This document shows, one piece after another, positions 20,928 through 23,009 of a stretch of DNA of 64,000 bases (its first letter is position 1; each line of letters starts with the position of its first letter). The notes beneath the pieces are model-generated. The model worked only from the letters and a program-made list of their open reading frames with translations. It was not told the DNA's origin and ran no database searches. The translations under genes and the position numbers were made by a program. The DNA is from Proteiniborus ethanoligenes (GTDB lineage: Bacteria > Bacillota > Clostridia > Tissierellales > Proteiniboraceae): contig NZ_FNQE01000002.1 in the NCBI RefSeq assembly GCF_900107485.1, forward strand, positions 124,001 to 188,000. Direction: 5' to 3'.

Positions 20928-20950
20928 AGGCTGGCAAAATGCCAGCCTTT
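20928..20950. terminator. Bidirectional terminator between pgi and the DUF881 gene
   Basis: AGGCTGGC (20928-20935), loop AAAAT, GCCAGCCT (20941-20948). It overlaps the last codons of the convergent gene. Confidence 0.75.
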
Positions 20951-21686
20951 ATAATTGACTATTTAAGCTTTCAACAGGTCTGATATATTTTGGCTCAATT
21001 TTCTTGTGAAGGCCAGGTATTACTATATCTTCTTTTTTTACAATGTTTATTTTTAGGAATAAATTTCTTTTCACATAATCTATAATTCCGCCTCTTATAG
21101 TTAGGTTAGCTTCTAACTCTTTTGGATCTCCTATTGCCCTTATTATTACGGGAGTATTAATAACGTGGTCATCGAAAATCAAAGAGTTGTTTTCTTCCTC
21201 AATTGTTGAATAAGAAGTGTACCTTATATCGTTTATAGAAATAGCCTCTGCATTAGCAGCATTTAAACCGCTAATAATTTGTAACAAAGCATCATAATTA
21301 GCAGCTATAATATTCGTGCCGTCATCAAAGGTTACTTCAACCTCAGGCTCACCTATTTCTATTTGAAGCCCAGGTCCCTGTGTATCTTTGTATCCAACAA
21401 GGATATTATATTTTTCTAACTCAGTGTAAAGGCTCTTAAGATAATTATCTTTTTCTGCCACCTCATCTTCAAAGCCTTTAATATCACTCTCTATATCATT
21501 TAATGTTTTTAAAAGCTCTTCTTTTTGAATGCTTAATCTTTCTATTTCAACAGATAGTGCCTTTGATTTAGTAATAGGATTAGCTCCATCAGTAACATTT
21601 TGAGTAGTATTAAACTGTATAGAAAGTATAACACCAAGTATTAAGCAAACTAAAAACATAGAAAATTTACTTTTTATATCTTTCAA
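20949..21686 (-). CDS. DUF881-family membrane-anchored protein (YlxW/YlxX-like)
   Basis: A 245-residue protein with one N-terminal membrane helix (about 8-25), a coiled coil (about 42-95) and a C-terminal DUF881 domain. The family motif around NAANAEAISINDIRY and the CDxxG-like DPKELEANL segment are present. In Bacillus, DUF881 proteins (YlxW, YlxX) lie in the division gene cluster; this copy stands alone. Start is TTG at 21686 with AGGAGG 7 bases upstream. Function unknown, presumably at the membrane and cell wall. Confidence 0.82.
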   Translation of the reverse strand: MKDIKSKFSMFLVCLILGVILSIQFNTTQNVTDGANPITKSKALSVEIERLSIQKEELLKTLNDIESDIKGFEDEVAEKDNYLKSLYTELEKYNILVGYKDTQGPGLQIEIGEPEVEVTFDDGTNIIAANYDALLQIISGLNAANAEAISINDIRYTSYSTIEEENNSLIFDDHVINTPVIIRAIGDPKELEANLTIRGGIIDYVKRNLFLKINIVKKEDIVIPGLHKKIEPKYIRPVESLNSQL

Positions 21687-21863
21687 ATTGACTCCTCCTA
21701 AAAGCCTAGTTATATATATAATAACCTTTTTGAGTAAAAAATGAAATTGTTTAATAATGTATTTTTATTATAAAAGATAATTCACCAAGAAGTGGGTATA
21801 ATTCTATTATATATATTAAGAAAAATATTAAGGCAGATTAAACAATCTATGGGAGGGGAAAAA

Positions 21864-22157
21864 ATGGATATTATCATTTCTGAAGATGTTATACAATATC
21901 TTGAAAACTTAAGACGAAGAACTCTTACAATATACACAGAAATAATAGGAAGTTGCTGAAGTCCAAGACCTGAAATTTTTGTGAGGACTAGAGAGCCGGT
22001 GGCTCTTGAGGATTTTCAAGAGTATGATGTAGATGGAATAAAGGTATATTTATTTAAGGATGCTAAAGTAGATAAAGAAATTATATTAGAAATGTCTAAG
22101 CAAGTGTCAGATCTACCTAATAAAGAAATTGCAGTAAAAGGAATAGATTTAAGCTAG
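21864..22157 (+). CDS. CC/Se-motif family selenoprotein (UGA read as selenocysteine)
   Basis: The frame from ATG 21864 (preceded by GGGAGGGG) runs 98 codons to TAG 22155-22157 with one in-frame TGA at 21957-21959, codon 32. The context is G-S-C-TGA-S-P-R-P-E, so the protein would read GSCUSPRP, where relatives carry GSCCSPRP. This matches the small CC/Se-motif family, distantly HesB/IscA-like. The codon after the TGA continues a coherent protein (VDGIKVYLFKDA...VKGIDLS). Hairpin candidates that may serve as bacterial SECIS follow the TGA: AGTCC with GGACT (21960-21989) and AGAGCC with GGCTCT around a GGT loop (21992-22006). Ordinary gene calling misses it. Biochemical function unknown. Confidence 0.85.
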
Positions 22158-22167
22158 ATTTTAAAAA

Positions 22168-22185
22168 TTGTGATAAACATCACAA
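22168..22185 (+). promoter_or_regulatory. CRP/FNR-type palindrome upstream of the FrdX-like gene (candidate HcpR site)
   Basis: TTGTGATAAACATCACAA has the same arms and 6-base spacer as the site before hcp (17086-17103). It lies 80 bases before the ferredoxin-like gene. Because it follows the selenoprotein gene and is followed by eight T, it could also form a terminator hairpin; both uses may coexist. Confidence 0.6.
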
Positions 22186-22265
22186 TTTTTTTTGCTTATT
22201 ATCACACATTTATATGCTAATGTAATATATAATAAAAAACAGAAAACTAAAAAGGAGTGCATAAA

Positions 22266-23009
22266 ATGGCGATTAGGAAAATAATGCATATAGATGAAGA
22301 AAAATGCATAGGATGCGGACTATGTACAAAGGGCTGTGCAGAAAGCGCTATTAAAATAATAAATGGTAAGGCAAAGCTAATATCAGAAAATCTTTGTGAT
22401 GGACTAGGAAACTGTATAGGACATTGTCCAGTAGGAGCTATTCAAATAATTGAAAGAGAAGCAGATGAATTTGATGAAGAGGCAGCAGCAAAGCATTTGG
22501 AGAGCTTAGACAAAAATCAAACCTCTCAAGCCCATGGGCATGGAGGTGGCTGCCCAGGAAGCAGGGCTATGGCAATAAGTAGAAATGAAAAGCCTAAAGC
22601 ATCAACAGCTGTATCTATAGGAGATATAGAGATAAAAATCAAACCTCAATTATCTCAATGGCCTGTTCAGCTAATGCTTGTTCCAGAAAGAGCTACTTAT
22701 TTTGATGGCAAAGAATTGTTAGTTACAGCAGATTGTGTACCATTTGCTTATCCTAATTATCACTTAGATTTATTGAAAGATAAGTCAGTAGTCATAGGCT
22801 GTCCAAAGCTAGATGATGTTAACTATTATGTGGAAAAGCTAACTAATATAATCTTAAATAATGATATAACTGGAGTTACTGTAGCCCATATGGAGGTTCC
22901 TTGCTGTAATGGTATAGTAATGGCAGTAAACGAGGCTGTAAGAAGATCTAGAAAAAATATTGAAATCAATAGAGTAAAAATATTAATTGATGGTGAAAGA
23001 GAGAGATAA
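22266..23009 (+). CDS. FrdX-like 2x[4Fe-4S] ferredoxin-domain protein
   Basis: A 247-residue protein. The N-terminal part (about 1-65) has two cysteine motifs, CIGCGLCTKGC and CDGLGNCIGHCP, binding two [4Fe-4S] clusters. A His/Gly-rich linker (HGHGGGCPGSR) is followed by a C-terminal domain with conserved cysteines (TADCVPFAY, IGCPKLDD, VPCCNG). Proteins of this build, called FrdX in comparative studies, are co-regulated with hcp by HcpR and are proposed to feed electrons into nitrosative stress responses. The shared palindrome with hcp supports that. The ATG at 22266 has AAGGAG 8 bases upstream. Confidence 0.82.
   Translation: MAIRKIMHIDEEKCIGCGLCTKGCAESAIKIINGKAKLISENLCDGLGNCIGHCPVGAIQIIEREADEFDEEAAAKHLESLDKNQTSQAHGHGGGCPGSRAMAISRNEKPKASTAVSIGDIEIKIKPQLSQWPVQLMLVPERATYFDGKELLVTADCVPFAYPNYHLDLLKDKSVVIGCPKLDDVNYYVEKLTNIILNNDITGVTVAHMEVPCCNGIVMAVNEAVRRSRKNIEINRVKILIDGERER

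Follow-up and report, generated by a model that had tools for sequence, protein, structure and literature searches.

A predicted Cys-Sec member of the CC/Se motif family in Proteiniborus ethanoligenes, with a predicted HesB/IscA fold and a proposed thiol/selenol redox role

In a 64-kb stretch of Proteiniborus ethanoligenes DNA (64,000 nt, hereafter the window) a TGA interrupts a short reading frame that continues beyond it, which raises the question of whether this codon terminates translation or specifies selenocysteine (Sec), and what the protein would do in the latter case. The gene (21864..22157, plus strand, TAG included) starts with an ATG at 21864 and runs through 31 sense codons to the TGA at 21957-21959 (codon 32), which is followed by 65 codons and a TAG at 22155-22157; the product would have 97 residues, the codons of its Cys31-Sec32 pair being TGC-TGA (21954..21959, +). 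A Shine-Dalgarno sequence, GGGAGGGG (21851..21858, +), read from the sequence, stands 5 nt 5' of the ATG. An earlier sequence-only reading had described this layout, from the ribosome binding site through TGC-TGA at codons 31-32 to the TAG, and our re-reading matched it exactly. The combination of a Shine-Dalgarno-like motif, an ATG, at least 20 codons, one in-frame TGA and at least 60 further codons, a pattern defined post hoc with the gene already known, occurs once on the two strands of the 64-kb window, in this gene. Its divergent neighbour encodes a DUF881 protein (PF05949 by Pfam; 20949..21686, minus strand) and its downstream neighbour a 4Fe-4S dicluster-type protein (22266..23009, +, the start ATG being our choice). 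Directly 3' of the gene lies a terminator-like hairpin followed by a T run (22163..22190, +; -10.2 kcal/mol, z -4.5, 0/200 shuffles as stable), which was missed by a separate terminator scan whose criterion was three G-C pairs; because this hairpin comes after the gene, the latter is probably transcribed alone. An Rfam search of the gene region returned only matches far under their gathering scores.

If the TGA were a true stop, the downstream frame would be a relic or a separately reinitiated peptide. TGA does serve as a stop in the source genome, and it ends 7 of the 49 mechanical ORFs of at least 150 aa in the window, so that other frames here use it as an ordinary stop. Against this reading, which we regard as very improbable, stands the presence of the in-frame TGA at the identical codon in 6/6 clade genomes, the window's included; the other five are two congeneric genomes (G915 and G914), two of the same order (G1003 and G792) and one of the same class (G720), with identities ranging from 30 to 64%. 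The six TGA orthologues form a single clade (SH-aLRT 99). Computation shows purifying selection beyond this conserved UGA: 3' of the TGA, dS/dN was 1.09/0.20 for window-G915, 1.43/0.22 for window-G914 and 1.30/0.13 for G915-G914, and dN was lower than dS in 15/15 pairs, a difference that is clear for close pairs alone, the distant ones being near saturation with dN close to dS (e.g. 1.01/0.85 for window-G720). The sequence-only reading would have abandoned a selenoprotein if the sequence after the TGA were unconserved among relatives; it is conserved in five of them, with dN well below dS in close pairs, and structure prediction gives a single continuous fold across the site. When a profile of the six-member clade was run against 391 genomes of the class, a draw in whose match list G914, G915, G792 and G1003 are absent, G720 was the only further full-length close match. 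Scanning named genomes with a further profile (A3) yielded one relative, in Sporosalibacterium faouarense (Tissierellales), and a scan of named-genome contigs with the window protein gave 46 pattern matches and zero relatives.

The source genome (G000; 3.16 Mb, 69 contigs, 99.8% complete) encodes the Sec machinery, whose absence the sequence-only reading had named as its other ground for rejection: a tRNA-Sec with anticodon TCA (72.7 bits, gathering score 47), selB (362.7 bits, cut-off 242), selA (636 bits, cut-off 268) and, directly upstream of selA-selB on contig C39, selD, identified by sequence and location rather than by a profile. This selD (L161:11872-12912) has its own in-frame TGA, in SGUAAKIGP, with a GUU-loop hairpin 33 nt 3' of the UGA by hand count. 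The TGA might be read as another amino acid through suppression or local recoding, a reading for which nothing in favour was found and which is opposed by the complete Sec machinery, by Cys at the equivalent site in relatives and by a SECIS-like signal at the level of the family (see below); we rate it as even less probable than a true stop. We hold it near certain that UGA-32 is translated as Sec, a residue that we infer for the actual protein: SelB and Sec-tRNA(UCA) would decode UGA-32, which would result in the Cys31-Sec32 pair.

The family as a whole follows the Sec machinery. SelB scored above its cut-off in 79 of 80 tested family-bearing genomes (a chosen set, not all those known), the sole exception, judged by E-value, being G253, whose one family member is Cys-Cys. 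In a comparison of 329 phylum genomes, taken to be those with handles G000-G328, selA was found (E ≤1e-60) in 74/79 family-bearing and 145/250 other genomes (Fisher p 2e-10). The five family-bearing genomes without selA are G253, G281 (one weak match), G176 (truncated gene), G168 and G243. G168 and G243, drafts 90 and 92% complete, carry TGA family genes (L141 and L157) with selA unmatched at E 1e-60; G176, likewise without a selA match at this threshold, has a truncated TGA gene (L104). Missing contigs or selenoprotein decay may account for these TGA genes, of which those of G168 and G243 weigh against the selenoprotein explanation.

In all likelihood the window gene adds a new, divergent member to NF041239 (Moor_selen_rel, CC/Se motif family (seleno)protein), a family already on record. 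The NF041239 model matched the whole window protein with an E value of 3.8e-10 and 39.7 bits, 0.3 bits below the curated cut-off of 40 bits, while in the genome scan the window gene scored 35.2 bits, also below the cut-off; against Pfam the window protein had no family at E 1. The family name given by the sequence-only reading was thus correct, and the downstream family pattern to which it had pointed is present, as P, V, G and P after the motif together with DGI.VY. NF041239 matches were found in 92/398 genomes of the phylum (E 0.01), 85 of them above the cut-off, and an 11-row profile (A2) gave matches in 136/249 genomes of the order, from which 41 places were extracted, the weaker rest being unchecked. 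An archaeon used as a control genome, Methanosarcina acetivorans, has an NF041239 match under the cut-off. The family is tabulated as "CC/Se motif family selenoprotein (hypothetical protein predicted in Moorella thermoacetica)" in a 2026 review (PMC13188914), and the same hypothetical protein is given in a 2022 review (PMC9312934); the tables of these two reviews give no function for it, which is consistent with the earlier description of the function as undescribed.

Two adjacent sites make up the motif. Among 149 extracted members (a set from which, e.g., weak matches of short length and the second copies of G362, G151 and G153 are missing) the site pair is UC in 35, UA in 32, CC in 29, UU in 11, UG in 10 and CU in 8, besides rarer forms, 2 of the 8 CU rows (L052 and L098) being alignment offsets and not adjacent Cys-Sec. 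From this tally, Sec as predicted from in-frame TGA is therefore at the first, the second or both of the sites. The TGA of the window gene aligns with the second site, as the sequence-only reading had claimed in placing it at the family's second Cys; the whole six-genome clade has Sec there, and the window protein has its adjacent pair, Cys31-Sec32, at the conserved site of the family. On a 181-row tree, built without the motif columns and omitting proteins of <80 aa, five named rows and duplicates, a minimum of 16 changes separates Sec from non-Sec and 6 separate Cys-Sec from the rest, rough counts given that labels were set by string (L071 was called CU though its Sec is at site 1, and Thr-Sec was counted as first-site Sec). 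Eleven members have two adjacent TGA codons and are predicted to be Sec-Sec (L112, L114, L115, L118, L119, L120, L154, L155, L107, L097 and L111), their motif often being GUUNAFYAPSG. Five of the 149 (L093, L095, L109, L143 and L152) have neither Cys nor Sec at either site, so that, as judged by the alignment, the family is maintained at sequence level even where the active pair is gone, which weighs against the redox role proposed below. In G045 two adjoining tandem sister genes (L147:2501-3090; SH-aLRT 87), one Cys-Sec and one Cys-Cys, form by sequence a natural Sec/Cys duplicate pair. TAA or TAG as alternative Sec codons, considered for two G383 matches, were dropped, these stops being N-terminal and away from the Sec site.

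For bacterial SECIS elements, the relevant part of a review (PMC13188914) gives a loop of 3-9 nt, a stem of 4-16 bp, a G in loop positions 1-2 and a distance of 16-37 nt for most. We compared local folding after the UGA with that of synonymous-codon shuffles, by motif class, in distinct members of at least 75 aa with U or CC in a motif within residues 20-60. Excess structure was centred 20-30 nt past the UGA in one-Sec genes (n=122; t -8 to -12), and was found in Sec-Sec genes (n=11; t about -7) and in Cys-Sec genes (n=12; t -5.4 at 18-22 nt); Cys-Cys genes (n=31) had no excess (t -1.7 or weaker), t being a guide and not a probability because the genes are related. A hairpin of the published model scored over a threshold of our own in 113/122 one-Sec genes (shuffles 0.63), 11/11 Sec-Sec genes, 9/12 Cys-Sec genes (shuffles 0.35) and 18/31 Cys-Cys genes (shuffles 0.53). 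Of the 113 one-Sec genes, 74 had the loop exactly 23 nt past the UGA; it stood at 21 nt in 9 Sec-Sec genes and at 20-21 nt in 7 Cys-Sec genes, and was scattered in Cys-Cys genes, positions that lack a shuffle comparison and of which conserved codons beneath the loop can favour one. TGA-bearing genes of the family, not Cys-Cys ones, have excess structure of the kind that a SECIS would give, and it is at the level of the family only that this signal is supported.

In the window gene itself three candidates were considered. Candidate D (21991..22007, +) is a 7-bp hairpin with a GGU loop 38 nt past the UGA, 1 nt beyond the published range, and beats 199/200 synonymous shuffles; an alternative form has a larger loop at 37 nt. 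Its seven pairs are all kept in the window, with 5 in the orthologue of G915 (L197), 6 in those of G914 (L198) and G792 (L213), 3 in that of G1003 (L206) and 2 in that of G720 (L059). Candidate C (21974..21989, +) has a weak stem and a UGUG loop 20 nt past the UGA, near the position seen in most TGA-bearing relatives; of its six pairs, G1003 and G720 have all 6, the window 5 (two being G-U), G914 5, G915 4 and G792 3, and G1003 and G720 thus have a 6-bp stem at 20 nt in place of hairpin D. Candidate A (21960..21989, +), an AGUCC/GGACU stem with a 20-nt loop, was judged by pair conservation: all five pairs are found in the window and G914, 3 each in G915 and G792, 1 in G1003 and 2 in G720. The sequence-only reading had proposed two hairpins, of which the one at 21960-21989 was recovered as described and the other only roughly, being found at 21991-22007 with its loop at 38 nt versus "about 39". 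The model hairpin was no better than shuffles in G915, G914 and G792 (0.38 to 1.0 of shuffles as good), and 19/200 shuffles were as stable as the fold of the whole region (74 nt of the window, z -1.45), which is hence unexceptional. RNAalifold found no common structure for all six orthologues; for the four closest it predicted hairpin D together with a helix of 3 bp at 54-60 nt, and also a different helix at 42-45 nt. Judged on these folds, D is the best candidate SECIS of the window gene, and the position of the element has possibly shifted within the clade.

What may such a protein do? The AF2 model of the window protein (pLDDT 93, 96-row alignment) was compared with known structures by VIA-align, in which rows 1-10 had Z scores of 8.3-4.4 and the next row 2.7, with the caution that Z <8 may reflect a common arrangement only. 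Six of these ten are titled IscA, SufA or Fe-S biosynthesis proteins; the remaining four (YneR, DsrR, AQ_1857 and HI1723) we take to belong to the same superfamily. Foldseek was weak for this model (best E 0.036, AQ_1857; SufA E 0.17 with a probability of 0.95; unrelated rows below these). For L137, a second member, whose Sec is at the first site (AF2 pLDDT 92), VIA-align retrieved the same ten entries (Z 8.9-5.4; next 3.7) and Foldseek gave SufA at E 6.2e-5, the first ten rows all coming from the same set; for both models the ten entries stand well above the rest. At the sequence level PF01521 matches 24/96 members at E ≤0.1 (best 8.8e-5), the 20 other Pfam families listed matching one member each, and NCBIfam matches among members include NF038090 IscA_HesB_Se (12), TIGR00049 (7), SufA (5) and TIGR01911 (4). 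Against this, the family profile A1 returned no IscA when searched in PDB sequences, its four matches being chance ones at E >1. It is likely, going by these predicted structures, that the window protein and the CC/Se family have the HesB/IscA fold.

Two proteins, L247 and L248 (GYGUSGP and GVGUGGP), have an in-frame TGA and are HesB-like selenoproteins by their UxGP motif. A PF01521 search of 148 genomes of the class at E 1e-5 matched no other protein. In one hhalign comparison the family matched them with 94.6% probability and E 7.1e-8, and the columns, read by eye, place Cys31 of the window protein opposite the HesB-like Sec, so that site 1 corresponds to the HesB Sec and IscA Cys35 site and Sec32 of the window protein is the next residue. 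The Fe-S ligand set of IscA is CXnCGCG, according to the portion of PMC5471300 that deals with it. This Cys35/99/101 set is absent from the window clade, Cys31 and Sec32 being the only Cys or Sec in each of its six members; of 181 family members, 154 lack both Cys and Sec beyond the motif region, and 2 carry CC or CxC close to their end.

These data bear on the main rival to a redox function, a Sec-using stand-in for A-type carriers in which Cys31-Sec32 of the same selenoprotein would bind a metal or an Fe-S cluster, e.g. across a homodimer. The predicted IscA/SufA/HesB fold is in its favour, as are the scarcity of PF01521 in the class noted above, the lack of any PF01521 match at E 0.001 in the source genome, and a 4Fe-4S protein as the neighbour of the window clade; the missing CXnCGCG ligands and the many members devoid of Cys or Sec past the motif region speak against it, and we consider this reading unlikely, though clearly more probable than a stop codon.

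We propose instead that the protein is a redox relay built upon an Fe-S-carrier fold. The only two chalcogen residues would sit on the loop equivalent to the IscA Cys35 loop, where the adjacent thiol and selenol could act as a redox pair, by way of a reversible selenenyl-sulphide or a mixed disulphide, that would have the thioredoxin system or a comparable donor as its reductant. This role, chemistry and partner alike, is one that we infer, with moderate confidence, because the protein has no reactive groups besides the adjacent thiol and selenol, lacks the ligands of the carriers, and belongs to a family of which several subgroups have thioredoxin systems nearby. A survey of 848 neighbours of 187 distinct family genes, in which 1-3 representatives per neighbour family were named by Pfam, gave counts that are lower bounds, many loci having a flank of 1.5 kb only, that have no background rate behind them and in which relatives within one family are not independent. 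A thioredoxin or a pyridine-nucleotide-disulphide flavoprotein was found near 23/187 genes: in 12 the gene directly downstream encodes thioredoxin (f25 and f53) and in 4 the one after it does (f48 and f99), 3 have a thioredoxin-flavoprotein fusion (f59) and another 3 a flavoprotein-rhodanese fusion (f58) on their upstream side, and for the remaining one the neighbour is encoded on the opposite strand (f2). These thiol-redox neighbours support the relay for the family only; against it, the window clade has no thioredoxin neighbour.

Other subgroups adjoin other genes. In one Sec-Gly subgroup 11 genes are preceded at 1-27 nt by an SDF symporter (three families), CstA is directly upstream of 7 genes (five families), 8 genes in 7 genomes have an SBF transporter (bile acid/arsenite-type) no more than three genes away, and an aldehyde ferredoxin oxidoreductase (AFOR) is near 8/11 Sec-Sec genes and two others. 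An iron-hydrogenase-like 4Fe-4S protein is found near 7/11 Sec-Sec genes. Two clusters as big as some that were retained were left out of consideration as non-operonic: ABC-F genes, at 18 places in 15 genomes and on the opposite strand at 12 of these, and XRE regulators, in 18 genomes, with the regulator immediately downstream but on the opposite strand in 14/18. Because other types adjoin transporters and AFOR, a single role for the whole family is not established, and the same associations would suit a small partner of membrane transporters or redox enzymes, specialised by subgroup as a chalcogen sensor or a metalloid/thiol chaperone. For the window gene, which adjoins none of these genes and has its own terminator-like hairpin, we think that role rather improbable, somewhat more so than metal or cluster binding. 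No member of the window clade has the thioredoxin system, SDF, CstA, AFOR or SBF among its surveyed neighbours; the neighbour there is the 4Fe-4S protein, the next gene in G000, G915 and G792 and the second in G914, and in the window it lies behind the terminator-like hairpin, which also weighs against the relay.

Taken as a whole, a Cys31-Sec32 selenoprotein with the HesB/IscA fold and a thiol/selenol redox relay function is the explanation that we favour, at even odds. A broader and more tentative scenario is that the HesB/IscA fold, in the anaerobes of a class where standard A-type carriers are mostly absent, became a set of small selenol-thiol relays. Sec would move there between two neighbouring sites (giving Sec-Cys, Cys-Sec, Sec-Sec and Cys-Cys), every subgroup would serve a partner of its own (the thioredoxin system, an SDF symporter, CstA or an AFOR-type oxidoreductase), and in the window clade the Sec site and the SECIS hairpin would both have shifted. 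The CC/Se family was already known; what is usefully added is a predicted fold for it, the pattern of Sec at two sites and a SECIS-like signal at family level, which turn an unexplained family name into a testable hypothesis, that of selenol-thiol redox chemistry on an Fe-S-carrier scaffold. The literature searched, which did not extend to the likeliest papers of Haft and colleagues, contained no statement of a link between the CC/Se family and HesB/IscA in the parts seen, and we claim no priority.

Compared with known systems, the window protein shares with NF041239 its length, the CC/Se motif, the P-V-G-P pattern after it and DGI.VY, but its Sec is at the second site, whereas most members have it at the first, and its C-terminus reads SDLPNKEI where other members have an FGxFKxL-like end. 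With the IscA/SufA/ErpA A-type carriers (PF01521) it has in common the predicted fold and the placement of the motif at the carriers' Cys35 loop; unlike them, it has no C-terminal CGC pair and no PF01521 match. The HesB-like selenoproteins (TIGR01911, UxGP) resemble it in predicted fold and in carrying Sec on the same loop, but in L247 and L248 Sec occupies the first site, one residue before the Sec of the window protein, whose motif is CUSP and not UxGP and for which no TIGR01911 match is listed at E 1. DsrR of Allochromatium vinosum (2k4z) is a structural match to both models (Z 7.2 for the window protein and 7.7 for L137). DsrR presumably has no CC/Se pair, and we take it to be an IscA-fold protein without Fe-S ligands, hence a precedent for another role on this fold.
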